A DNA stretch of 53,581 nucleotides, from positions 1 to 53,581 of the IMG/VR virus record IMGVR_UViG_3300032223_002826; one strand, given 5' to 3'. Shown here piece by piece: positions 13,465-40,186 of the stretch (its first letter is position 1; each line of letters starts with the position of its first letter). The position numbers were made by a program, and so were the translations under genes. The notes beneath the pieces were generated by a model. The model was not told the DNA's origin. It ran no database searches and saw only the letters and a program-made list of their open reading frames with translations. This stretch comes from a virus.

Positions 13465-13745
13465 GTTCTAGGCTTTGTCCTCTTTCGTCCCTTCACAATC
13501 AGGAGACCACGACGACCGCCCAGTGAGCGTGCCGTCTTAGCCTTGAGCCCGATTTTTGCTCGGCTTGTTTTAATACGAATAAGAAGTTTCGAAATGCTAC
13601 CATACTTGCGTTTTAGTCGCTGGCGTCCCTTGATCTGAAACCGCTTTTGCGATCGAGTAAGGCGCTTGACTACACCACCAACTGGGGCAAATCCACGCTT
13701 TAGTCGGCTACGGAGCGTACGGTTTGGCGTCCTCAATAGCGTCAC
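13461..13745 (-). CDS. Small highly basic protein of unknown function
   Basis: This gene starts at GTG 13745 with a good AGGAG site eight bases upstream, and encodes 94 aa. About a third of residues are K or R (RSRLKRGFAPVGG, RFQIKGRQRLKRKYG), with few acidic residues. It overlaps the end of the glycosyltransferase gene by 38 bases and the connector start by four. It could be a neck or minor head protein that contacts packaged DNA. I do not recognise a family. Confidence 0.6.
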   Translation of the reverse strand: MTLLRTPNRTLRSRLKRGFAPVGGVVKRLTRSQKRFQIKGRQRLKRKYGSISKLLIRIKTSRAKIGLKAKTARSLGGRRGLLIVKGRKRTKPRT

Positions 13746-14880
13746 AAATCTTCTCCTGAAAGTCGCTCCAGTTCAACTCTGCTGCGCGCTTCAAGCCTGC
13801 TTCTCGCATGCGCTTGAGACGCTTAGGGTCTCGCTTAAGCGAAATAATCGTCTTCGCAATATCGAGCGGAGAAACATTTGCATATCGCGTTCCGCTCTTG
13901 TGAATCTCCCAGTCAGCGACTGGAATGCCAGCACCCTCAGCGCCGCGAGCAACTTCCCATCCAGCAGCATACTTAGTCACTGCAACGGGTGTGCCGCATG
14001 CCATCGCCTCGGCGATTGGCAGCCCAAATCCTTCTACCTGACTTGGCAGTACGAATAGGTCTGCAGCCCTGTAGAGATCTGGAAGCGTTGGCTTATCGCC
14101 ATCGCTTCGCTCTGGGATTCCGTCTCCGAAGTTCTCCATCTCAGGGTTGAACATAATCATATCCTCAACGCCAAGAGATCGAGCAACCTGCGGAAGGTGC
14201 CAGCCCTCAAGCCAGAACCTCTGGAACGGAACGGTGTGGTCGTAAAGTAGAATATCTTTTTGTTTGTAGACATCTCGCAAGATTCCCATAGCCTCAAAAA
14301 GGCGTGGGTGCTGCTTGCGTCTAACATTGGCAGCAACAGTGATTACAACAAACTTGTCGCTCCAGCCAAGGTTCTTTCTCACTTCATCCCTGCGCGTATC
14401 GTCTGGGCGGAATACATCAGTATCCACTCCATGGTAAGCCCAGTCAACTTCTTTGTTAAGCGACTGACGAACTACCTTTGCCCCGTACTCGCTGCAGGTA
14501 ATGAACTGAATCGTTGATAGGAGTGACCGCCACTCTTGAAGTGCAATCGGCTCGCCCTCAATCACGCAATATGCCGTAAACGGAATGCGTGCTGGAATAA
14601 CCATCGAGAGAGCAGATAGAGATCCCGGCTCTCCAGCCGAGAAGATGCGATCAGGCTTGAAATCCTCAATCGCTTCTGGTATTGTTGCCAGACCGATTGG
14701 GTCGTTACTTTTTGGTGCGTACTGTTTTACGGGCAGGTCGGTCTTCACTGGCGCTGTCTGCAGCCCCGTCACCGTTGCCACTTCCCAGCCCTTGCTCAGG
14801 AAGGCTTCCATCGCCATCCTGTGCACTCGACCGAACCCCGTCTTCGAGAATGGGCTGTCGCCCAGAATCAGTACTTTCAC
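13708..14880 (-). CDS. Glycosyltransferase, GT4/GT-B type
   Basis: This gene starts at GTG 14880, six bases after AGGAG, and encodes 390 aa. The N-terminal Rossmann half begins VKVLILGDSPFSKTGFGRV. The C-terminal half has ADLFVLPSQVEGFGLPIAEAMACGTPVAVT, the donor-binding E-x7-E region of GT4 enzymes (E of VEGFGLP and E of IAEAM). It would transfer a sugar from a nucleotide-sugar in the host cytoplasm. Its place within the capsid-neck operon suggests glycosylation of virion proteins, or of host surface sugars late in infection. It overlaps the gene upstream by 176 bases and the basic-protein gene downstream. Confidence 0.88.
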   Translation of the reverse strand: MKVLILGDSPFSKTGFGRVHRMAMEAFLSKGWEVATVTGLQTAPVKTDLPVKQYAPKSNDPIGLATIPEAIEDFKPDRIFSAGEPGSLSALSMVIPARIPFTAYCVIEGEPIALQEWRSLLSTIQFITCSEYGAKVVRQSLNKEVDWAYHGVDTDVFRPDDTRRDEVRKNLGWSDKFVVITVAANVRRKQHPRLFEAMGILRDVYKQKDILLYDHTVPFQRFWLEGWHLPQVARSLGVEDMIMFNPEMENFGDGIPERSDGDKPTLPDLYRAADLFVLPSQVEGFGLPIAEAMACGTPVAVTKYAAGWEVARGAEGAGIPVADWEIHKSGTRYANVSPLDIAKTIISLKRDPKRLKRMREAGLKRAAELNWSDFQEKICDAIEDAKPYAP

Positions 14881-15112
14881 TCTTGACTCCTGCGCTCTTG
14901 GCACTCTGAGGATCTAAAGCCTCGATCCAAACATTTGGATCAACTTCAGCCCCGGTATCTGCGTCTAGACGATAGCCCTTATGGTATGCATTTAGGCACC
15001 ACTCTGGTCGATCGTCTGGGATCTCAACAACTCCATCTACTACGGGAACTTCCCCATCGTAGAAGTAAAGCGCTAGATCTACCTTGTACAACATGTGCTT
15101 TAACTTTGCCAT
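14705..15112 (-). CDS. Small head-associated protein, long overlap with glycosyltransferase
   Basis: This gene encodes 135 aa from an ATG with AAAGGAG upstream. The first 65 residues are compact (LYKVDLALYFYDGEVPVVDG, PEWCLNAYHKGYRL) and look like a small phage head accessory protein, which often follows the capsid gene. The last 60 residues are a low-complexity S/G/D/E tail ending RPARKTVRTKK, and they lie entirely over the start of the glycosyltransferase in another frame. Both frames appear used. Function is unknown; a capsid decoration or head-completion role is possible. Confidence 0.6.
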   Translation of the reverse strand: MAKLKHMLYKVDLALYFYDGEVPVVDGVVEIPDDRPEWCLNAYHKGYRLDADTGAEVDPNVWIEALDPQSAKSAGVKSESTDSGRQPILEDGVRSSAQDGDGSLPEQGLGSGNGDGAADSASEDRPARKTVRTKK

Positions 15113-15205: not shown

Positions 15206-16081
15206 TCACGAGACGGCGGTGAAGCCAGTCAGGACCGTTGGACGACCTTCGAGCGCGAACCCGAAGTAGCCCTTGATCATGAAGTCCGTGGAGTCCTTGG
15301 TCTTTGCCAGTTCCTCATAGGTGAAGTCCTGGTGAACAAGGAGTTTCGCATCCGAGCGGCGGACAAAGGCAATCTTGTCCGACTTCTCGTCATGCAGATC
15401 CGTAACGATCGGAATACCATCATAGGTCATGACGCGGAAGCCAGCGGCAATCTCAGTCTGATCCATGAAGCGCTGTTGCGCAACAAGGAGCGAGTTGATC
15501 TTGCGCTTGACAGCGCGACCAGCCACGATGAGGTCAACCTGACCAAGGGAAGCGTCGATCGCTGAATCGATCGCGGCGAGGGTGAGTGCACCGCTCGTCG
15601 TAACCGTCGAAGCGGCGTTGGCGCCGTCCGCATCAGTAACCTGCTGGTAGATACCCTTGATGCCATTGCCCGTGCCGTCGCCAGTGGCGAGGTCGGTTGA
15701 CAACTTCTCGGCAAGAACGCGGCTGTGAGCCTCGATCTCGAGCGCGAGCGCATCGATAAGCGAGCCAGCGGCGCGCTGAAGGGGACCAGTCACCTCACCA
15801 CGGGTGTACAGGTAAGCAACAGGAACAGCAACGCGGACATGCGTCGTGTTCGTTGCCGACGGAAGCGAGCCGCCGTCGGTCGCCCACGAAGCGGTTGGGT
15901 TAGCCGTGCGCTTGCGGACGAAATAGGTGTTCGTCGCCCAAGGCATCTTGGTGACGGCATTATAAAGAACAGGCTCCTTCGACACATAGTCGCGGATAGC
16001 CTCATCGATCACCAGAGGGATCAGATAAGCGCTAGAACCAGCGGCAATGTCGAGCGCCTTGCGAACGCTAGTGACATCCAT
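15206..16081 (-). CDS. Major capsid protein (HK97 fold)
   Basis: This 291-aa protein lies directly after the protease-scaffold gene. The sequence IPLVIDEAIRDYVSKEPVLYNAVTKMPW, then TASWATDGGSLPSATNTTHVRV, followed by long helical EIEAHSRVLAEKLSTDLATGDG, is the N-arm, E-loop and spine-helix pattern of compact HK97-type capsid proteins. QVDLIVAGRAVKRKINSLLVAQQRFM belongs to the A-domain. Its codons are more GC-rich than those of its neighbours, as expected for a highly expressed gene. It forms the icosahedral shell after processing by the upstream protease. Sequence alone does not show covalent cross-linking residues. Confidence 0.88.
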   Translation of the reverse strand: MDVTSVRKALDIAAGSSAYLIPLVIDEAIRDYVSKEPVLYNAVTKMPWATNTYFVRKRTANPTASWATDGGSLPSATNTTHVRVAVPVAYLYTRGEVTGPLQRAAGSLIDALALEIEAHSRVLAEKLSTDLATGDGTGNGIKGIYQQVTDADGANAASTVTTSGALTLAAIDSAIDASLGQVDLIVAGRAVKRKINSLLVAQQRFMDQTEIAAGFRVMTYDGIPIVTDLHDEKSDKIAFVRRSDAKLLVHQDFTYEELAKTKDSTDFMIKGYFGFALEGRPTVLTGFTAVS

Positions 16082-16105: not shown

Positions 16106-18433
16106 CTACTTGCGGTGAGCAAGAGCAAGACCCAGTCGCAAACGCTCAGAAGGCGAAATGCTGGCAAGATTTGCCATCACATCGTCCTGAGTCGTCTCAC
16201 CACGCTCAATGAGAGGCGGGGCTGAAACGGCAGGGCTATTTTCCAGTTCCACAATGCGAGCGGATGCCTCAGCAAGAGCACGCTTGAGTTCCTCAGTTTC
16301 GTCGACAACGGTTTCCTTCTCAGGTTCGATGGCGACTTCCTCAAGGTTAGACTCATCGGCGTTAGAGACCGACTTCGCAGTTTCATCTTCAACCTCTTCG
16401 CTAAGGAGACCAAACTCCTTTAGCGCAGCGGTCATTTCTTCGTGGAGGGCAAGGAGACGAGAGGCGGTCTCGGCGCTAATCTTGCGCCCAACCTTCTCTA
16501 CATCAGCCTCAACCTCAACTTCTGGGACAACTACCTCGGCACCGCACTCACCGCATTCGCAGGGAGTTTCATGCTCTGGATTGCTATCCTTTTCAACTTC
16601 GCCCTCAGAAACGACAGCCTCCTCAAGAGGTGCCTCTGCTGGCTCAGATGTTTCAATAACAGGAGCCTCAGGCTCGGCGACAACAGCCTCAGCCTCAGGA
16701 GCAACAACGGTCTCAACCTCTTCGGCTGGAACATCGTCGATCGCCTTGTGCAGAACCGTTCCGAAGGAAGGGGTCCACGCAGGTCGAGTGGTGTTGCTAA
16801 TCTCGTTCAAGGTCACATCGTAATAGGTACGAATGTTCTTGCCAAGATCTGGCATGAACTCATCCTTATACGATCGGACTGCTCCAGCAACGGACATGCC
16901 AAACTGCTTGCCCTTCTGGAGTTGAGCGAACAAATACATTGCTGCAGGATTCGCCTCATCAAGTTTGACCTCGACACCGAGGTGCATCTTATCGGTAATC
17001 CATGCACGGACGATCGAGCCAAGATCACGAAGAACGCCATCTTGAGCATGCGCATCGCGATATGGAAGAGGATTGGTCAATGCATTCTGGCTGATCTGCT
17101 CAGCGAATCGCTGAATAGCATCAGGAGCCATACGCTCATCAGTTGCATCAATCTCTGGACCAGAAGCCTCGCCAAGGATGTAGAATCCGTCAGCGCGCTG
17201 CTCAGCCTTCGAGATAGGGAAAGTAATCTTCCAAGGAGCATTGACGCTCTTAGCAATGCTTTTCATAGACATATCCTCTGGAGTGTTGACATTAGGATCT
17301 TCAACATCCTCCACAACTTCTACGCCAGAGGCGCGAAGTTGCCAAGTCCACTTCTGAAGCATTTCTGCTCGACCAGCAAGGAAGTTTGCAATGCCCTGCT
17401 CATTAGCAGCGCTTGCAACATTGAACATGCGGGTGGTCTCGGCGAGGAGAACATTCAATCGATTGAGGAGGTCCTCAGTCATAAGGTCAGGGTCATCCTG
17501 AACGCCAGTCTCATCTGCGGAAACAAGCCCAGCATCACCAATAGATCGAAGGGCAACAAAGTCTCCAAGACGGAATGGAGCGTCAACAGATAACTTCAAT
17601 AGGCTCTCGGCAATAGGGTCAACTGATTCATAAAGGTCGCTATAGATCTCGCCGAACAGTTCATGATACTGCGAGAAAAGTTCGCCTTTTGCATTCCAGT
17701 GATAGCCATGAGCAGTAAAGTACACGGTAACGGTATCGGACAAAAGTGCCTTGAGCCCATCAACAAGTTCAGGGGTCGCAGTCTTCTGCACTGATTCGCT
17801 CTTTGCGAGATCAGATTCGCTAATAATCCACAACTTACAAACCGCCTCTCCGGGGATTACCCCAGCAACGATCTCGCACTGACCGCCGTTTGCTGCGTCC
17901 CAAAAGACACAGTTCTTGCACATCAGTCCGGCATCCTTGAAGGGGTTCTTATCAGGCGGCGCATAGTGAGCACCGTTAGCCCCCTCTGTTTGGTCAAACT
18001 TACCGAACTCCGATGCAATCTGCTTGTAAGCAGCATACATCGCTTTCTGGCGCTCGTTCAGCATTACGCCCTCACCAAGATCTTTCTTGGTTGAGCCGCT
18101 GGCGACACGCTCAGCCCACGCTCGAGCACGGGCATTATCTGTCTTTGAGCCACCGCCCCAAAGGGCTGCAGCAACAACTCCGGGAGATGGATAGTCAGGA
18201 TGCCCACGCTTTGCAGCAGGAGCACTCATGTCAGGCTCATGGCGAGCAAACCATGCTGCCATACGCTTTGCCTTCTCTCGGCTGATTTTCTTGGACTGAA
18301 CAATGCGCTTCGCTTCAGCAACAGTCTTAGGCTTTAGCCCACTACCAGCCTTGCCCTGCGCATACCAGTTCAAACCATCATTCATGTTGGTAACAAGCCA
18401 ATCGGCTGCGGAAACGAGATCAGATTCAGCCAT
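16106..18433 (-). CDS. Prohead protease-scaffold polyprotein with HiPIP-like and Dps-like domains
   Basis: This 775-aa protein lies between portal and capsid. (1) Residues 1-115 hold a helical module with KAKRMAAWFARHEPD and YPSPGVVAAALWGGG, common at the start of phage head proteins. (2) C172, C175, C186 and C199 (CKNCVFW to VCKLWII) have the spacing of a HiPIP-type Fe-S domain. (3) Residues about 223-370 resemble Dps/ferritin: YHWNAKGELF, QYHELF and SVDPIAES align with the Dps ferroxidase motifs, keeping both His, the later Asp and the Glu, while the position of Dps D67 is Gly. (4) Residues about 400-565 form an XkdF-like prohead protease (YILGEASGPEIDATDERM, FGMSVAGAV). (5) An acidic linker carries CECGEC, and the C-terminus is scaffold-like (VMANLASISPSERLRLG). 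The fusion of (2) and (3) to (4) and (5) is unusual. Domains (2) and (3) rest on motif recall, without a search. Confidence 0.85.
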   Translation of the reverse strand: MAESDLVSAADWLVTNMNDGLNWYAQGKAGSGLKPKTVAEAKRIVQSKKISREKAKRMAAWFARHEPDMSAPAAKRGHPDYPSPGVVAAALWGGGSKTDNARARAWAERVASGSTKKDLGEGVMLNERQKAMYAAYKQIASEFGKFDQTEGANGAHYAPPDKNPFKDAGLMCKNCVFWDAANGGQCEIVAGVIPGEAVCKLWIISESDLAKSESVQKTATPELVDGLKALLSDTVTVYFTAHGYHWNAKGELFSQYHELFGEIYSDLYESVDPIAESLLKLSVDAPFRLGDFVALRSIGDAGLVSADETGVQDDPDLMTEDLLNRLNVLLAETTRMFNVASAANEQGIANFLAGRAEMLQKWTWQLRASGVEVVEDVEDPNVNTPEDMSMKSIAKSVNAPWKITFPISKAEQRADGFYILGEASGPEIDATDERMAPDAIQRFAEQISQNALTNPLPYRDAHAQDGVLRDLGSIVRAWITDKMHLGVEVKLDEANPAAMYLFAQLQKGKQFGMSVAGAVRSYKDEFMPDLGKNIRTYYDVTLNEISNTTRPAWTPSFGTVLHKAIDDVPAEEVETVVAPEAEAVVAEPEAPVIETSEPAEAPLEEAVVSEGEVEKDSNPEHETPCECGECGAEVVVPEVEVEADVEKVGRKISAETASRLLALHEEMTAALKEFGLLSEEVEDETAKSVSNADESNLEEVAIEPEKETVVDETEELKRALAEASARIVELENSPAVSAPPLIERGETTQDDVMANLASISPSERLRLGLALAHRK

Positions 18434-19730
18434 TTTGCTTTGTCCCCAAACCAGTAATCAACGAAGAAGCCGAAGCATTCCCGTCAACAATCTTTTGACC
18501 AAGCGCTTCAATCAACTTGAGCGGAATCATTCCCGCCGCAGTCTGAACGAAGTGAATGTCTCCACCTTCGACATGCCCAAGACCAAGATCAGATCGAATG
18601 TCGTCAGCATTGAGAACACCCATCTTCTGAAGTTCAGTCAAGAACTTAGTATTTTCCATCTGGTCGCGTCGGCTAATCTCGCGATGAGCAAATACGACAT
18701 CATCCCAGCCAATCATGCGAAGAATCAACTTATTATTGATCTCTTCCTCAACGATGCTTTGAAGCGGAAGGATAGTTTCCTGACGGAATGAGTTATCCGA
18801 TTCCTTGCTGGTTGATCGGTTAGAGTTCTCTAGGAACCCAACCTTATCGGGTGGAATATCAAGAACAGAAAGGATCTCGTCTCGGTTAAACTTGCGACCT
18901 TCGACAAACTGCATTTCCTGAGGCGTAGAGACAGCCTTGGAAACCGTAATGTCACCTTCAAGAAGAAGAGGTCGGTGAGCATTAGCAGACCCGACATAGT
19001 TAGCCTCAAGCCACTCACGGTTTCTGAAAATCTCATCAACGCTGGCATTCTTCATGTTGAAGATGATGCCCGTCTGAGCGCTATTCTCGAAGAAGGAGCC
19101 ATTATATTCCTGAGCATATAGATCGCTTGCGACCGTTGTCTGAAGAGAATGAAGAAGACTTAGACCGTAGATATCGCTCTCAGGGTCATCCAACTTGAAA
19201 TCGCAGATATCCTCGATAGCATAGGTAATCGTTCCCGGCTCGCCATTGGCTCCGTACTTATAGGAGACAAGAACGCCATCCTTGACAACTTTTTCAATAT
19301 ACTTTGGATTCAGACGAAGGGACTCAATAGGCTTGCCAGACTTTGTCTTGCGAACAAGCCAGAATGCCTGACCGTAGATTACAAGATCCTTATATGTCAA
19401 TCGAAGCAACTGAAGACCATCGCTTTCGCGGAATAGTCGCTGCAGTTCCTTGATCTTGTCAGGACTGGTTGGATTCTCTGGATCAAGCGACTTGAACAAG
19501 AACCCGTTGGCGGTGGCAACCTTTGCAATCTTTTCGGTCGCAGCACGAACGACTGGGTGCGTGCTATACATTCGATAGTAAATATCGAGCAGACCGCGAC
19601 GAGCGTTAGTAACAAGAGTAGTATCCGTTCGATTGCCAAGTAGGGCAAATCGAGTTGCTACGCCGGGTGCTGATACTGAGACATCTGACTTCTTCATCTG
19701 TGGCTCTGTGACCTTCTTACGAGACGCCAT
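18426..19730 (-). CDS. Portal protein (HK97 type)
   Basis: This encodes 434 aa from the ATG at 19730, five bases after AAAGGGA; an in-frame ATG at 19748 is a less likely start. The sequence has YYRMYSTHPVVRAATEKIAKV, LTYKDLVIYGQAFWLVRKTKSGKP, LRLNPKYIEKVV and a wing/stem region, matching phage portals of the HK97/SPP1 class. FVEGRKFNRDEILSVLDIPPDKVGFLENSNRSTSKESDNSFRQE has the PP and N-S-T elements of the portal crown. It forms the dodecameric DNA gate at the head vertex, where terminase and neck proteins bind. It overlaps the protease gene by eight bases. Confidence 0.9.
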   Translation of the reverse strand: MASRKKVTEPQMKKSDVSVSAPGVATRFALLGNRTDTTLVTNARRGLLDIYYRMYSTHPVVRAATEKIAKVATANGFLFKSLDPENPTSPDKIKELQRLFRESDGLQLLRLTYKDLVIYGQAFWLVRKTKSGKPIESLRLNPKYIEKVVKDGVLVSYKYGANGEPGTITYAIEDICDFKLDDPESDIYGLSLLHSLQTTVASDLYAQEYNGSFFENSAQTGIIFNMKNASVDEIFRNREWLEANYVGSANAHRPLLLEGDITVSKAVSTPQEMQFVEGRKFNRDEILSVLDIPPDKVGFLENSNRSTSKESDNSFRQETILPLQSIVEEEINNKLILRMIGWDDVVFAHREISRRDQMENTKFLTELQKMGVLNADDIRSDLGLGHVEGGDIHFVQTAAGMIPLKLIEALGQKIVDGNASASSLITGLGTKQNG

Positions 19731-19929
19731 TATTGTCCCTTTCAACATTCTTTTCGATTGTCATCTCGAGAGGGTATTTGACCATCTCGCCGCACTTTCT
19801 GCACGGACCTTCGACAGAACCACCACGGACCTGTCGGTAGACATCGCGATATTTCATATTCAAGACGCCATTTACTTCGATTCCGAAGAGGCATCCGCAT
19901 GCTGGGCAAAGAATCTTTTTAGGTGTCAT
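19717..19929 (-). CDS. Small zinc-ribbon protein
   Basis: This 70-aa protein has two CxxC knuckles, C8-x2-C11 and C43-x2-C46 (CPACG and CRKCG), an ordinary zinc-ribbon arrangement. It lies between terminase and portal, overlapping both by a few bases (four with terminase, 14 with portal), so it is translated with them. It might be a packaging accessory or regulator. No family assignment. Confidence 0.7.
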   Translation of the reverse strand: MTPKKILCPACGCLFGIEVNGVLNMKYRDVYRQVRGGSVEGPCRKCGEMVKYPLEMTIEKNVERDNNGVS

Positions 19930-21362
19930 AGGAAGGACATTCTCGCGGCATTCCGACCATGCCCGTAAAGCGCTAGGCAGAGAGACCAGAAGTAGTCGTC
20001 TCGCTTTGCCCCTGAACCGCCGGAGAACTTGTAGAATCCAGCCTCTGACTTTGTTCGGCGGATCCCATGGATCTGACGCATCAGATCGCTATGACGGGGA
20101 TATCGGACGGTCGGCACCCCCTGAAGTTCTCCCTTGAACTTCGTTGCCCAGCGCTCTTTGATCGCATTGGTGAATACTACACCCTCAATCATTGAGGAGC
20201 CAACTTGCGACTTTGCGCTTTCGACGAACATTGCACCAACGCCAGTTTGGTCGATAGAGACCCTTGTGGCTTTAGACTGCTTGATTAGTTTCAAAAGATA
20301 TGACAACTGTGAATCGTATGTATCCTGAGACGATTTCACCAGTCGAACATGCGCAGTTCGCTCGCCATCCTCAGCCTCAATAAACTCAACGACTGTAAAT
20401 ACAGACTCATCTCGTTCTTTTGCTAGGTCGACGCCGATAGCGACTGATCCCTGTGGCTCCCAGCCCGGTGGAAGTTCACGCCACATTGAATGCGTGTCAT
20501 CTACCGCATTGACGATAAGTTCCCACGGATAGTAGGCACTTGTTTCGTCTACGAATGTCGCCTCGTATTCCGTGGCGAACGACTGAAAGTCCCCTCCGAA
20601 GGAGCGTAGAATGGTGAGCAACTTTGGCGTACCAAACTTTTGTACTCGCTCGGCGGTACCCATATCCGCAGCGCTGGCGATGGCTTCCTCAATGAAGCCA
20701 TCCTTGACCATTGCTTGGCACTCCCACCACGGAACAGAGTGGCGAGAATACTCAGGATACGCATCTGAGTTGCTTGCGATATCGTAGAAAAGACCGCTTT
20801 GACCAAGCGGTGTAGAAACAATAGTTAGCCGTGAATCGCCGCGAGTAATAGCAGGGATCGCTGCCTGATACAACTTCTTGGCGTCGCGAATGTGCGCAAA
20901 CTCGTCAAAGTAGATATCTTTTCGACCACCACGAATGGCGGAAGAGGCTGGCTGGCTTACCATGGTCGCAACATTTGGCGGGCGATGGAACGAGAGTTCC
21001 TGTTCGGAGTCGTTCCAGAGCACGGGCTTGATTCCCGCTTCCCCGCCAAAATCGTCGCTAATAGAATGATAAAGATTACGAGCAATCTCAATCTTATCAG
21101 ACGCCTCGGTCTGGTTGACTGAAACATAGTTTGCTCGGTATCCCGGATTCATGATTGCCTTAGCAAACCCTTCGCCGGAAATAACAGTAGAGAATCCAAT
21201 CTGCCGTGACTTATTGACAATGCGGAAGTTGGAGTGATCATTCAAAAACCTGATCTGATACGGTTCCAACTTTAGTGGACCACCATTCAGTTCAGTCAGC
21301 GTCTCCAGAAACAGTGCTGGGCTCTGAGCCAACAGGATCTTGAGATCCTGAATCGTAGGCAT
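19926..21362 (-). CDS. terL: Terminase large subunit
   Basis: This is the packaging motor ATPase and nuclease. I place the start at ATG 21362, just before MPTIQDLKILLAQSPALF, giving 478 aa. An alternative frame runs up to 21494 but its first 44 residues are S/T-rich and lie on the conserved-looking end of the preceding gene. Motifs: ATPase P-loop VNKSRQIGFST (about residues 49-59), Walker B DIYFDEFAHI, a downstream TIVSTPLGQSGLFYD coupling motif, and nuclease acidic residues in AIGVDLAKERDE, VSIDQTGVGA and KRDDYFWSLCLALYG. It cuts concatemeric DNA and pumps it through the portal. Confidence 0.92.
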   Translation of the reverse strand: MPTIQDLKILLAQSPALFLETLTELNGGPLKLEPYQIRFLNDHSNFRIVNKSRQIGFSTVISGEGFAKAIMNPGYRANYVSVNQTEASDKIEIARNLYHSISDDFGGEAGIKPVLWNDSEQELSFHRPPNVATMVSQPASSAIRGGRKDIYFDEFAHIRDAKKLYQAAIPAITRGDSRLTIVSTPLGQSGLFYDIASNSDAYPEYSRHSVPWWECQAMVKDGFIEEAIASAADMGTAERVQKFGTPKLLTILRSFGGDFQSFATEYEATFVDETSAYYPWELIVNAVDDTHSMWRELPPGWEPQGSVAIGVDLAKERDESVFTVVEFIEAEDGERTAHVRLVKSSQDTYDSQLSYLLKLIKQSKATRVSIDQTGVGAMFVESAKSQVGSSMIEGVVFTNAIKERWATKFKGELQGVPTVRYPRHSDLMRQIHGIRRTKSEAGFYKFSGGSGAKRDDYFWSLCLALYGHGRNAARMSFL

Positions 21363-21879
21363 TGCCTTCGATGACTCGAGGCTGCTCGCTGTATCCGATG
21401 AGGACACGAAGCCTGTCTGGGTCGATACCCCGGTTTGCGTAGATCCTGAGGAGCGGCTCTGAGCCATCGTCGACATTATCATCTCGCTTGTCAATCTGGT
21501 TCCTTAGCCCCAAGAGGCTGTTCAGAACCTTTAGCCGTTCCGTAACATCTTTTCGGAACTTTGGCTCTTCTAGTGGGTCGTCTTGCTTCATCTCTCCTAC
21601 GAGCGCAGGATAGAGGTTTCTCGAAAGAAGTAGGACAAGTGTGTCCAACTCTGACTTGGTAGAGATGGTCTTGCCTTGGAGGATCACACCCCGCATATAC
21701 TCAAAATGCTCGGGAGGAAGTTGATCCTTCATAGCCAGCAACATTTCATTTGCCAGTTCTTTGGGCACAAGGCTCTTAGGCTTATTAGACGAGCCCTGCG
21801 GTCTTCCGCGTTTTCCCCGTGATACGGCGCCCTCGCGCGACCCTTCGGTCGAGCGTGCTCCTGCGTTCTGCTCAGTCAT
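21292..21879 (-). CDS. Probable terminase small subunit
   Basis: This 195-aa protein lies immediately upstream of terL. It has a basic, glycine- and proline-rich N-terminus (RGKRGRPQGSSNKPKS, AT-hook-like GRPQG), a helical central part (PKELANEMLLAMKDQLPPEHFEYMRGV) and an acidic C-terminus ending in TVSGDAD. Position and a DNA-binding-like N-terminus suggest the DNA-recognition subunit of the packaging motor. No confident family match is visible. It overlaps the zinc-ribbon gene upstream by eight bases and terL by 71. Confidence 0.6.
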   Translation of the reverse strand: MTEQNAGARSTEGSREGAVSRGKRGRPQGSSNKPKSLVPKELANEMLLAMKDQLPPEHFEYMRGVILQGKTISTKSELDTLVLLLSRNLYPALVGEMKQDDPLEEPKFRKDVTERLKVLNSLLGLRNQIDKRDDNVDDGSEPLLRIYANRGIDPDRLRVLIGYSEQPRVIEGNAYDSGSQDPVGSEPSTVSGDAD

Positions 21880-24038: not shown

Positions 24039-24302
24039 TTACTCCTTTGTTAGCGCGTCTTTGATAAAGGCTGGATCGTTACGCGCGCCAACGATCCTTC
24101 CAATCTCTTTTCCACCAGCGTCAAGCATGACAACGGTCGGAACCGACCGAATGCCATACTCTTCAGCAAGTGGTCCTTGTTGATCTACATCCACCTTGAC
24201 GAGAGTGACTCCTGTCTCCTCTGCAACCTTGGTCAATACTGGACCGAAGACCTTACATGGGCTACACCAAGTGGCGGAGAAATACAACGCTCTCGCTGCC
24301 AT
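24039..24302 (-). CDS. Thioredoxin
   Basis: The start is ATG 24302, which shares one base with the TAA of the reductase gene. It encodes 87 aa, short for the family (about 105) because the first strand and helix are trimmed. The active site is W12-C13-S14-P15-C16-K (ATWCSPCK). The cis-proline loop RSVPTVVML and VKVDVDQQ strand are present. It is expected to re-reduce the active-site disulphide of the class II ribonucleotide reductase encoded by the overlapping gene. Confidence 0.92.
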   Translation of the reverse strand: MAARALYFSATWCSPCKVFGPVLTKVAEETGVTLVKVDVDQQGPLAEEYGIRSVPTVVMLDAGGKEIGRIVGARNDPAFIKDALTKE

Positions 24303-26569
24303 TAGCAGGCGCTCCATCCGCACGAGAGGCACTTCATGCACCCCTCTTCGCGAACAAGTGAAGTATTTCCGCACTCTGTGCACAGGTCAGCACTGACCTG
24401 CTTGGCTGGCTTTGGCGCAGCATCGACAGCCTCAACCGTTGCCCCGTCTTCCGACGACGCAAGGAGCGCCTCTCCAATCGCGTGCGGGATAGCCTTGGCG
24501 AACTTGCCAAACCCTCCGACACCGAGCAACTGGCTGCCCACCTGTTTCAGGGTCGCGCCCTGCTGCAGGCTAAGGCTGACCAGTCGCCCAAGTGCCTCCC
24601 CCAACTCCATTACATCGGAACCAGCCTTACCGATTGCAACGAAGACCTCAACAGGTCGCCCCTCATCGGAGTTCACTGTTAGGTACGCTGTGCCTGCATT
24701 GGTAGAGACCTTCGTTGTCTTACCATCAAGCACCGCAGGGCGCGTCCAAGACTTTGGAGCCGTAACCTCCGTAGGCTTCTTCGGCTCCTCCTTGTAGAGA
24801 ACTTGCGTTCGCCCACAACCGTCTCGGAAATATGCAACGCCCTTGAGACCAGAATCATATGCCAGCGTATATGCCTTCTCAACATCCTCAATGGTGTGGC
24901 TGTTTGGCGCATTGATCGTCTTGCTGACTGACGAGTCAATGTGCTTCTGAGCAGCAGCCTGCACTGCAATATGCTCCTCAACCGTCACATCGTTCGAAGT
25001 AACAAAGTATGGCGGGAATGGCTTGTCGCTATTGATCTCGCGCCAGTTATCTGCAGGAGGCGCATAAACCTTGTGCGTACCCGTGCGGTCAACTCGCGTA
25101 TACTCAAAGGCAAAATAGGGCTCGATGCCACTATTTACGCCTGCGAGGATCGAGGTCGTTCCCGTCGGAGCCTGCGTGAGCAAGAAGATGTTACGCAGTC
25201 CGCTCTCCACAATCTCGCGATGGATCTTATATGGTAGTTCGCTCAGGTATGGTCGCTGCAGCATATTGTTCTTCCATGCTGGAGCAGCACCCAGTTGACC
25301 AGCCAGTTTTGCCGACTTGGAAATCGCCTCAATCTTCATCAGTTGAAAAACGCGACTCGTAAAGGTCACAGCCTCAGATGAGCCATAGCGAATGCCAAGG
25401 GAAATCATGGCGTCAGCCAAGCCCATGACGCCAAGCCCGATTCGGCGCAGTTTCTTCTGAATGTCCTCATTGTCTGGAAGGAAGTAGTAGTTCTTGTCGA
25501 CCACCTTGTCGAGGAACTCCACTGCTGTGCCGATATCTTGCGAGAAGTTATTCCAGTCAAAGACTGAGCCCTCAGCGCTATGACGAACATATGCCGCAAG
25601 GTTCATCGCACCAAGGTTGCAGACAGAGTAGGCGCCAAGACCCTGCTCGCCGCACGGGTTCACGCAAATGATGCGCTCAACCGCTGCGCCAGTGGATTCC
25701 TTGTTGTAGCGGTCAAGGAAGACAATCCCCGGCTCGCCATTGTCCCATGCTGCCTCAGCAATCTTGCGCCAGATCTCACGCGCCTTGACAGTTGCATAGA
25801 CCTTGACGGGATAGCCGTTCGCACGCCACTTGGCAATATCGCCGTCCCACTCCTCATCATAGGCTGGGTGAGCCGTATCTGGGAAACAAAGATCCCACTT
25901 GCCGTCAGACTTGACCTGCGCCATGAAGTGGTCAGAGACCGCAACCGACACATTGGCGTTGGTGATCTTAGTCAGGTCGCGCTTTGCCTCAATGAAGTCG
26001 ATGACATTTGGGTGCCAGTCGTCAATCATGAACATGGCAGCACCACGGCGCGAACCGCCCTGCTCCACCTCACCGACCGCCTTCGACGCCACATCCATCC
26101 AGCCGATAGGACCAGACGAAGTACCATTGATGCGCTTCAGGTATGCACCCTTCGGACGAAGCACCGACCAGTTGATGCCGACACCACCGCCACGGGACAT
26201 AATGTCCACCATCACGCCGATAGTATCAAAGATCGCCTCGCGGCTATCGCGCCCCTTCTCGATTGTTACTTTATCGTTCTTGCGCGCCTCTCGATGGGAT
26301 CGCGTCTCGACAGGGATCACATAGCAGTTGTAGTAAGTAACTTCTGAGTTAGCGCCAGCGCCAGCAAGGATACGCCCACCAGGGACGAACTTAAAGTTCT
26401 CGAGGATGGCACGGAAGCGTGAGGACTGGAGGGAGTCTTCGCCGATCTCGGCAGCGACACGGTCCCACATTTCTTCAGGGGTCGACTCGACGGGCTGTCC
26501 GTCAGGACCCTTCTTGGCATAACGGTCGAGGAAGACCTTAGTTCGCTGGGCATTGAGTGAGACAGGCAT
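24302..26569 (-). CDS. nrdJ: Class II (adenosylcobalamin-dependent) ribonucleotide reductase
   Basis: This encodes 755 aa from ATG 26569 (GGAA nine bases upstream); a longer frame to 26686 has an unlikely N-terminus. Catalytic features are YYNCYVIP (C82), the ICVNPCGEQGLG loop (N304, C306, E308), and C317, the partner of C82. APTGTTSILAGVNSGIEP is the phosphate-binding region. A C-terminal zinc ribbon (CTECG and CMKCLSCGWSAC) is typical of NrdJ. It reduces ribonucleotides to deoxyribonucleotides, feeding replication, and needs vitamin B12 coenzyme from the host. It is the first gene of the leftward block and is coupled to thioredoxin. Confidence 0.93.
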   Translation of the reverse strand: MPVSLNAQRTKVFLDRYAKKGPDGQPVESTPEEMWDRVAAEIGEDSLQSSRFRAILENFKFVPGGRILAGAGANSEVTYYNCYVIPVETRSHREARKNDKVTIEKGRDSREAIFDTIGVMVDIMSRGGGVGINWSVLRPKGAYLKRINGTSSGPIGWMDVASKAVGEVEQGGSRRGAAMFMIDDWHPNVIDFIEAKRDLTKITNANVSVAVSDHFMAQVKSDGKWDLCFPDTAHPAYDEEWDGDIAKWRANGYPVKVYATVKAREIWRKIAEAAWDNGEPGIVFLDRYNKESTGAAVERIICVNPCGEQGLGAYSVCNLGAMNLAAYVRHSAEGSVFDWNNFSQDIGTAVEFLDKVVDKNYYFLPDNEDIQKKLRRIGLGVMGLADAMISLGIRYGSSEAVTFTSRVFQLMKIEAISKSAKLAGQLGAAPAWKNNMLQRPYLSELPYKIHREIVESGLRNIFLLTQAPTGTTSILAGVNSGIEPYFAFEYTRVDRTGTHKVYAPPADNWREINSDKPFPPYFVTSNDVTVEEHIAVQAAAQKHIDSSVSKTINAPNSHTIEDVEKAYTLAYDSGLKGVAYFRDGCGRTQVLYKEEPKKPTEVTAPKSWTRPAVLDGKTTKVSTNAGTAYLTVNSDEGRPVEVFVAIGKAGSDVMELGEALGRLVSLSLQQGATLKQVGSQLLGVGGFGKFAKAIPHAIGEALLASSEDGATVEAVDAAPKPAKQVSADLCTECGNTSLVREEGCMKCLSCGWSAC

Positions 26570-26689
26570 CTGTGCTGGTTCCTTTCTGCTATAGGGGTTT
26601 TGAGTGGATAGGTAGTATATACGCTCTTTTTCATATCTCCAAATCCTGCCGGGCGAAGAGACTGATCTAAAATGATCCATTATCACGCA

Positions 26690-37902: not shown

Positions 37903-37945
37903 GTATGAGTAGGTGCTTACCTACGCAAGAGAAGGAGGTGCTCAG

Positions 37946-38818
37946 ATGAGCAACAAGGTTTACGAGGTGATCGCCGAAAGCATCACCAATGCACTGGACA
38001 AAGGCGTCGTGCCATGGCGCAAGCCGTGGAACGCGGAGCAGATGACGCCACGCAACATGAAGGGCGTGCCGTATCGTGGCATCAATGTGTGGTTGCTCAT
38101 GCTGCAGGGTCATGGTAGCCCGTATTGGGCAACCTACAAGCAGGTCAACGAGGCTGGCGGCACGATTGTGGCAGGCGCAGAAGGTACGCCTATTGTGTTC
38201 TGGTCGCGCTACGAGGTTGAAGACGAGAATGCAGGCGGCGAAAAAACCGTCAAGAGCATCCCTGTGATTCGCTACTACAAGGTGTTCAATCAGTCGCAGA
38301 TCAAGGGCATTGAGTTCCCTCCGCTGCCTACGGTAGGCAAGAGCGAGTTCTCGCCGATTGAGGCTGCAGAGCGTGTGATTTCATCTATGCCAAAGCGCCC
38401 AGACATTAGCGATAATGGTGGAGCCAAGGCGTATTATGTCCCCTCGCAGGATAGTATTCACATGCCAAGCAAGGATACCTTTGAGAGCGCAAATGGGTAT
38501 TATGCGACGCTCTTCCACGAGATGGCGCATAGCACTGGGCATTCGTCTCGCCTCGCTCGCAAGAGCGTTGATGAAGCGGCGCCATTCGGTAGCGACATCT
38601 ACGCTCAGGAAGAGTTGATTGCTGAGTTTGCTTCGGCGTTCCTCTGCGGAGAGACTGGCATCTCGCCGTCGGTGATTGAGAACGCTGCAGCATATATTGC
38701 TGGCTGGAAGCGAGCGATCAAGGACGACACCCGTGCCGTGATCTCCGCAGCAAGCAAGGCGCAGAAGGCGGCTGACTACATCCTCGGACGGGAGGATGCA
38801 GTTGCCAAGGCAGCGTAG
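37946..38818 (+). CDS. ArdC-like antirestriction protein
   Basis: The ATG at 37946 follows GAAGGAGGTGCTCAG. It encodes 290 aa. The N-terminal domain (residues 1-110) has VVPWRKPWN, YRGINVWLL, YWATYKQVNEAGG and FWSRYE, the ssDNA-binding domain of the ArdC/TraC family. The C-terminal zincin domain has FHEMAHSTGHSSRL with HExxH at 191-195 and the downstream EELIAEFASAFLC. Family members protect incoming DNA against restriction. The gene has its own promoter and lies in the early block, consistent with rapid expression after injection. Confidence 0.88.
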   Translation: MSNKVYEVIAESITNALDKGVVPWRKPWNAEQMTPRNMKGVPYRGINVWLLMLQGHGSPYWATYKQVNEAGGTIVAGAEGTPIVFWSRYEVEDENAGGEKTVKSIPVIRYYKVFNQSQIKGIEFPPLPTVGKSEFSPIEAAERVISSMPKRPDISDNGGAKAYYVPSQDSIHMPSKDTFESANGYYATLFHEMAHSTGHSSRLARKSVDEAAPFGSDIYAQEELIAEFASAFLCGETGISPSVIENAAAYIAGWKRAIKDDTRAVISAASKAQKAADYILGREDAVAKAA

Positions 38819-38963: not shown

Positions 38964-39237
38964 GGATTTCATGAACGCAGTCGCAGAGGTTATGGGGTTC
39001 GGCAGCGCGTGGAGTAAGGACATTGACGGCACAATCGTGGAAGAGAATATCTTCTTCCATGGGGCTGAGGTATCCGATGATAATGGTCGCGTACATGTGC
39101 AGTTTGCGCTTTCATATCCAAGCCGAGAGCATTCGGAGGCTGGTCTTGCACTGCTCTTGACGGCAGGCGAGGCTCGTCAGTTCGCCAAGGTTTTCACCGT
39201 AGCGGCAGACCTGCTTGACGCGCAGGAAGGTATCTAG
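38938..39237 (+). CDS. Hypothetical 99-aa protein
   Basis: The ATG follows AGAAGGAGATTCAGG. It is alpha/beta: FKIEDFMNAVAEVMGFGSAWSKDIDGTIVEENIFFHGAEV, then LLTAGEARQFAKVFTVAADLLDAQEG. Unrecognised. Its end overlaps the promoter for the recombinase. Confidence 0.7.
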   Translation: MANSEFKIEDFMNAVAEVMGFGSAWSKDIDGTIVEENIFFHGAEVSDDNGRVHVQFALSYPSREHSEAGLALLLTAGEARQFAKVFTVAADLLDAQEGI

Positions 39238-39243
39238 TACACT
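39215..39243 (+). promoter_or_regulatory. Promoter for tyrosine recombinase
   Basis: TTGACG (39215-39220), 17 bases, TACACT (39238-39243). It lies over the end of the preceding gene. Confidence 0.6.
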
Positions 39244-39307
39244 CGGGGGCAACCCCGATCGGGTGAGTCTGAGTGGCTCACAAAACGGGTATATAGGAGG
39301 GTGCAAC

Positions 39308-40186
39308 ATGGACATGAACGCAGCAGTCAGCCTATTCGTTAGCCAGCGGCAGTCAAGCGAGACGCGCCGTTCGTATGCTCAGGATCTTGCGCGATGGCAG
39401 TCGTGGCTGGATGAGAAGCAGTTGAGCCCGCAGATTGCGGTGGCGTATCGCGACTATCTTAGCGGCAAGTATGCCTCTGCGACAGCCGCCCGCGCGTTCC
39501 ATACGGTTCGCGTGTTCTATCGCTGGCTGCAATCCGCAGGCATTGTGGCGTCCAATCCGTTTGACGGCATTGAGGCGCCAAAGAAGGTCAAGAATCTAAC
39601 GCCAAAGGTTCCCGCAGATGCGGATATTGAGGCGCTTGTCGCAGCGTCTCTTCGCGAAGATGCGCCCGCTCGCTATGCGGCAGTGATCGCGTTGCTGCTC
39701 AACGGGCTGCGAGCCAGCGAGGTGCGTATGCTTCGCAAGGATGCGATTGAGAAGACGGACTACGGGACGATCCTGCGCGTGGTGGGCAAGGGCGTGAAAG
39801 AGCGCCTTGTGCCAGCAACCAGTGAATCAATCTATGCCTTGCAGCGCTATTGGAGCGACGCGGGAAGCAAGGAGATGAGTTCAGTCTGGGCGTTGCCTGA
39901 TACCAATGGCGAGATGCTCACGGTTCGTCAGGTGCAGCACGCAGTATACAAGTGCGCTGAGTGGGCGGGCATTCATGGGATGCATGCTCACGCCTTGCGG
40001 CATCACTATGCCACGCGGCTAATCCGCAATGGCGCTGGGGTGCTTCAAGTATCTAAGTTGCTTGGGCACTCTCGAGCAGATACCACGCAGGTATATGTGA
40101 CGCTGGACTTGGCAGACCTCGTAGAGGCAGCCAGTGTAGATCCAAGGGCGGTACCTGATAAGCCACGCCTTGTCGCTATCGCATAA
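39308..40186 (+). CDS. Tyrosine recombinase (XerC/D-like integrase)
   Basis: The ATG follows AGGAGGGTGCAAC. It encodes 292 aa. The N-terminal SAM-like domain covers residues 1-95. Catalytic residues: R135 (NGLRASEVR), K161 (VVGKGVKER), H228 and R231 (HALRHHYATRL), H254 (LLGHSRADTT) and nucleophile Y263 (QVYVTL). All are present. It could integrate the phage or resolve genome multimers. No excisionase or repressor is evident and no attachment site was identified. Confidence 0.92.
   Translation: MDMNAAVSLFVSQRQSSETRRSYAQDLARWQSWLDEKQLSPQIAVAYRDYLSGKYASATAARAFHTVRVFYRWLQSAGIVASNPFDGIEAPKKVKNLTPKVPADADIEALVAASLREDAPARYAAVIALLLNGLRASEVRMLRKDAIEKTDYGTILRVVGKGVKERLVPATSESIYALQRYWSDAGSKEMSSVWALPDTNGEMLTVRQVQHAVYKCAEWAGIHGMHAHALRHHYATRLIRNGAGVLQVSKLLGHSRADTTQVYVTLDLADLVEAASVDPRAVPDKPRLVAIA

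Follow-up and report, generated by a model that had tools for sequence, protein, structure and literature searches.

A predicted Dps ferroxidase and a HiPIP-like domain within the prohead protease polypeptide of uncultured tailed phages

Introduction

Many phages carry a free-standing Dps gene, for which a role in protecting the infected host has been proposed (gut phages, PMC8008677), and in Proteus phage Privateer the free Dps was found by mass spectrometry in purified virions (PMC7881722). HK97 shell proteins of archaeal encapsulins carry fused ferritin-like domains, and those of anammox encapsulins a cytochrome domain (PMC8346489). Polyvalent proteins of phages and conjugative elements are multidomain proteins thought to be packaged in capsids; a term search of the paper that describes them found no mention of Dps or ferritin (PMC5512222).

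Here we analyse a viral DNA of 53,581 nucleotides (IMG/VR record IMGVR_UViG_3300032223_002826; the whole stretch is called the window), whose source is an uncultured tailed phage. A sequence-only reading of this DNA had proposed that one head protein joins Dps-like and HiPIP-like domains to a prohead protease and scaffold, and had pointed to HK97-fold encapsulins as shells with ferritin-like cargo, of which the archaeal fusions above are examples. In the window the ferritin-like domain is not fused to the shell protein, which has a separate gene (15206–16081).

Results

A 775-residue protein in the head gene cluster

The protein of interest is encoded on the minus strand, within a run of head genes:

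16106–18433, minus strand: head-protein ORF, 775 residues from ATG, translated without a break
18426–19748, minus strand: portal protein gene, sharing 8 bases with the 775-residue ORF
15206–16081, minus strand: major capsid protein gene of the HK97 fold family, next downstream (SU10_MCP 5e-13, Phage_capsid 2e-11)
19926–21494, minus strand: large terminase gene, upstream of the portal gene, by family matches

From N- to C-terminus, the protein consists of a phrog_2859-like head domain, a HiPIP-like Cys4 domain, a Dps domain, an S78-type prohead protease and an acidic, scaffold-like tail:

18098–18376, minus strand: N-terminal phage-head domain, phrog_2859-like (residues 20–112)
17801–18085, minus strand: HiPIP-like domain, cysteines C172, C175, C186 and C199 (residues 117–211)
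17327–17797, minus strand: Dps domain, ferroxidase positions H245, H257, (G261), D272 and E276 (residues 213–369)
17234–17317, minus strand: variable linker between Dps and protease, a candidate processing region (residues 373–400)
16745–17110, minus strand: prohead serine protease domain, S78-like, with His462 and Ser514 aligned as catalytic (residues 442–563)
16109–16744, minus strand: acidic, Glu/Ala/Val-rich C-terminal part, by composition (residues 564–775)

Copies of the ORF that are 97% identical are present in two other assemblies, the first full-length and the second running from residue 273, and both keep the same domain order, so the ORF is not a misassembly. Together with the unbroken frame and the head-gene neighbours, these copies show that all domains truly belong to a single protein encoded among the head genes, as the sequence-only reading had claimed. 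Misassembly or a frame artefact is ruled out by the near-identical copies in other assemblies and by the many divergent fusions described below.

Elsewhere in the window, a family 4 glycosyltransferase gene (13708–14904) lies just downstream of the major capsid gene, as it does in Pontimonas phage phiPsal1, and a large ribonucleotide reductase with a TSCPD domain is encoded at 24302–26686. An integrase gene (39215–40186) and a polyvalent-type antirestriction protein with ArdC-N and zincin domains (37913–38818) suggest that the phage may be temperate.

The Dps domain

Residues 225–368 match Pfam Ferritin above its cut-off (E 3.4e-9), and the Dps segment matches PHROG 3636 (3e-22) and the PDB Dps entry 8ff9 (4.9e-14). 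An AlphaFold model built with 66 related sequences has a pLDDT above 95 across most of the domain. Predicting the fold had been set beforehand as a test, and the model is a four-helix bundle with the short BC helix of Dps (model helices 107–133, 139–166, 175–181, 201–228 and 232–255); both Foldseek and VIA-align rank Dps-type proteins highest, with a Z of 22.5 to a solved Dps. By sequence and by model, then, the segment is a true Dps; chance similarity between four-helix proteins is ruled out by the match to a PDB Dps and by the Z score.

The ferroxidase residues ascribed to this segment from the letters alone were found in place. H245, H257, D272 and E276 correspond to H51, H63, D78 and E82 of E. 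coli Dps, with W246 beside H245, so that four of the five ligands are kept; the fifth position, D67 in E. coli, is G261, again as first read. The His, His, Asp and Glu ligands are invariant in all 48 protease-fused Dps domains compared, although conservation of the two histidines is biased, as both belonged to the search pattern. The D78 and E82 positions lay outside that pattern and are invariant in 48/48 protease-fused domains and in 129/129 free viral Dps proteins fetched. At the D67 position, protease-fused domains have Q, L, G, N, E or M, and free viral Dps proteins mostly G, E, D or A; the residue is thus not Asp in any of the 48 fused domains or in most free ones, making loss of D67 a general trait of viral Dps. 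With glycine at this position, the second iron site may be weaker. Comparison of the window with its 97% copy shows 19 synonymous codon changes in the Dps part and two non-synonymous, conservative ones (dN/dS 0.029), a pattern that marks this part as being under purifying selection.

The HiPIP-like domain and its pairing with Dps

The cysteines of residues 117–211 are spaced as the sequence-only reading gave them, C172-x2-C175-x10-C186-x12-C199. Alone, the window domain scores 21.2 bits against Pfam HIPIP, just under the 22-bit cut-off, and the same family matches 15 of 19 phage segments. When a profile of these 19 segments is compared with the PDB, the six top-ranking matches are all HiPIPs (E-values 3e-5 for the first and 1.2e-4 for the second; PioC third), and a longer profile agrees. 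The four Cys, a Tyr, a Gly and an Asn make up the invariant columns; HiPIPs are known for a conserved Tyr close to their cluster. The structure model of the domain is poor (mean pLDDT 50), and its identity therefore rests on the sequence profile, which supports the assignment as HiPIP-like.

HiPIP-like motifs recur next to Dps: they share an ORF with it in the window and at six other loci (L095, L098, L261, L262, L278 and L307), and lie in an ORF adjoining Dps, within 450 bases, at five more (L102, L127, L247, L279 and L305). The pair is not obligate, since HiPIP-like domains are found without Dps in head proteins of Pontimonas phage phiPsal1 and phage DSL-LC01; in the latter, one gene of the head cluster was named "high potential iron-sulfur protein" by its annotators.

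Protease, linker and flanking regions

The N-terminal domain also occurs in the phiPsal1 prohead protease and in capsid polyproteins from Roseobacter phages. Pfam S78 matches the window protease below its cut-off (0.0058), while PHROG 4523 and NCBIfam NF045541 also match, and a profile built from relatives aligns residues 442–563 such that His462 and Ser514 fall on catalytic positions. These alignments, and a gene position flanked by the portal and capsid genes, mark the domain as a genuine, though divergent, prohead protease. The tail, with 22% Glu, is probably a scaffold by its composition, not by a scaffold family match. In the linker, six of 28 codons carry amino-acid changes relative to the 97% copy, against two of 160 in Dps, making it a possible processing region.

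Recurrence of the fusion

A general Dps motif scan of IMG/VR gave at least 120 loci, at 15 of which Dps lies inside an ORF of 280–1073 residues; all 15 were searched against protein families. Nine carry head-protease signals (L100, L107, L123, L146, L151, L154, L176, L186 and L195), and the signal is weak in L205. A phrog_2859 domain is present in L199 and HiPIP-like domains in L095 and L098. With an added clade-specific scan, at least 50 Dps ORFs of IMG/VR have an S78 domain, the window and at least 49 further ones. Among the 50 listed, 30 have the order N-terminal domain, Dps, protease; 17 have Dps followed by protease; two have protease followed by Dps; and one is the window. Besides these S78 fusions, Dps ORFs bear a portal/protease protein (L107) or different protease families. 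All four domains occur together, among the matches listed, only in the window and its 97% copies.

In a tree built from 131 Dps domains, the label "protease-fused" requires at least five changes, at least two of them forced by starred branches, and the fused Dps domains form 11 groups that share less than 50% identity. Both results indicate that the fusion probably arose more than once, or was repeatedly lost. Sequence comparison thus places the Dps–protease fusion in dozens of unrelated environmental phages, probably through several fusion events. A host origin of the gene was also considered and rejected: of the 24 clade-motif matches in 84,980 genomes scanned, 22 are Dps ORFs that lack the fusion. 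The two that carry it are on an Actinomycetota contig and a contig of a Betaproteobacteria MAG, both probably phage.

A tblastn search of 50,697 phage records, with three fused Dps domains including that of the window as queries, found no Dps–protease fusion, although divergent ones could escape it; it returned free Dps, plus one unannotated match (L013) without a Dps ORF. The literature searched, which leaves out most subscription journals, held no paper on such a fusion ("DPS" in the Lacusarx paper is a sequencing method, not the protein). As far as that literature and those phage records go, the original expectation of a capsid cargo that is "new or nearly so" stands for the fusion; a free Dps was already known in Privateer virions.

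Further domains were seen in these proteins. A HAD phosphatase-like domain of the acid phosphatase B/polynucleotide kinase type lies alongside Dps in six protease ORFs (L100, L154, L218, L220, L228 and L249), and it can be regarded as a second enzyme-like cargo of Dps–protease polyproteins. A TUDOR-like domain (Hva1_TUDOR) recurs in three others (L186, L195 and L260). The products of L107:6307–8979 and, in phage DSL-LC01, L007:7536–10091 are homologous head proteins of the portal/protease type: that of L107 has Dps mid-protein, whereas its DSL-LC01 homologue lacks Dps there and has a HiPIP-like C-terminus.

Free Dps genes beside head genes

Of 47 free Dps genes that bear the clade signature, 29 have a portal gene, a protease gene, a related head gene or a HiPIP-type gene within 100 bases, compared with 7 of 100 other free viral Dps genes (Fisher p 3e-12), a contrast that is descriptive because the signature was picked after the fused proteins had been seen and the head-gene seeds came partly from these same loci; the adjacency itself is observed directly. 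Most of these neighbouring clade genes overlap or directly follow the portal gene, which is the position of the window ORF. Beside one Dps gene lies an ORF (L182:6407–10015) in which a head maturation protease is joined to an Alt-like ADP-ribosyltransferase.

Discussion

We favour, with a probability of about 0.58, the reading that the protease is a head-targeting carrier and that Dps, perhaps with the HiPIP-like domain as its electron partner, is packaged against DNA damage by iron and peroxide. The maturation protease would carry the Dps ferroxidase, and here also the HiPIP-like electron-transfer domain, into the prohead, many copies being taken up by the procapsid as with other prohead proteases. 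It would then cut itself out and free Dps, which would remain beside the packaged DNA, binding Fe(II) and oxidising it with peroxide such that the genome in the particle would be spared damage by hydroxyl radicals. Alternatively, Dps could be ejected with the DNA and act in the same way early in infection. The HiPIP-like domain would exchange electrons with the iron site or core of Dps, which is plausible by analogy with ferredoxin–bacterioferritin pairs.

Three other explanations, which sequence does not separate from this one, deserve weight. Dps might act in the cytoplasm of the infected cell, where, once self-cleaved, it would counter oxidative stress, its fusion to a head protein ensuring late expression and nothing else. 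Such a role would agree with the host protection proposed for the free Dps genes of many phages (PMC8008677); it accounts poorly for the repeated coupling to portal and protease genes specifically, rather than to other late genes, and for the Dps detected in virions of Privateer (PMC7881722), and we consider it unlikely. Slightly less probable still is a purely structural role, with Dps as an oligomerising core that aids prohead nucleation without iron chemistry. Dps forms symmetric 12-mers, and the domain sits inside a protease and scaffold protein beside the portal gene, as such a core might. Against this stand the ferroxidase residues, invariant in every one of the fused domains compared, and the recurrence of a HiPIP-like redox domain beside Dps. 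The position of Dps also varies, being before the protease, after it or in a separate gene, which would not be favoured for a fixed structural part.

We give the least weight to a role for Dps, with the HiPIP-like domain, as an effector that enters the next cell with the DNA and there, for example, binds host iron or blunts an oxidative response. T4 packages and injects an Alt-class ADP-ribosyltransferase, and the Alt-like fusion beside the Dps gene of L182 is suggestive in this respect, as is the theme of packaged multidomain phage proteins (PMC5512222). An assembled Dps 12-mer, at about 9 nm, is too wide for a siphophage tail, however, so that only unfolded subunits could pass. Sequence does not tell an ejected effector from protection within the capsid.

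Returning to Dps as a packaged, DNA-protecting enzyme, its presence in the head protease of dozens of unrelated phages implies that some phages probably load an iron-detoxifying protein beside their DNA. A broader and more tentative proposal, to which we give somewhat less than even odds, is that many uncultured tailed phages possess an iron-detoxifying compartment of their own, in which Dps, with or without HiPIP, is loaded via the protease or a portal-adjacent gene, and the head is an iron- and redox-active structure that protects DNA; under the same reservation, phages with Dps-loaded heads would constitute a widespread, undescribed group. The shell is usually seen as giving phage DNA passive protection. 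If Dps is active once packaged, the virions of many environmental phages would bear an antioxidant enzyme, with consequences for survival in light and in iron-rich water, and the maturation protease would represent a general route for loading enzymes into heads. Such heads would be a natural phage counterpart of the ferritin-loaded encapsulins, which have the same shell fold.

The internal proteins and Alt of T4 bear capsid-targeting sequences that are cut by gp21. In both T4 and our proposal, cargo enters the prohead and is freed by the prohead protease; the T4 cargo has a short targeting peptide, whereas that of the window belongs to the protease polypeptide itself, with putative cleavage. 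Known HiPIPs (PioC, 6xyv; 3h31) have in common with the window domain the C-x2-C-x(n)-C-x(11–13)-C spacing and a significant profile match, but are small, separate and mostly periplasmic proteins, while the window domain forms an internal part of a head protein. Polyvalent proteins (PMC5512222) are, like the window protein, multidomain, and are thought to be packaged, as we infer here; they are of the effector type, in contrast to a maturation protease and scaffold with an iron enzyme. Free phage Dps (PHROG 3636; PMC8008677; PMC7881722) belongs to the same protein family as the window domain and is virion-associated in Privateer, but is encoded by single-domain genes for which no head-protein fusion or HiPIP partner is reported. 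In the Flp-fusion encapsulins of Pyrococcus furiosus and Sulfolobus solfataricus (PMC8346489), a ferritin-like domain is put in an HK97-fold shell by fusion on the N-terminal side, an arrangement like that of the phage; in these encapsulins the fusion partner builds the shell of a cellular compartment and the ferritin-like domain forms an open decamer, whereas in the window the partner is a maturation protease, the cargo is Dps and the shell is one that packages DNA.
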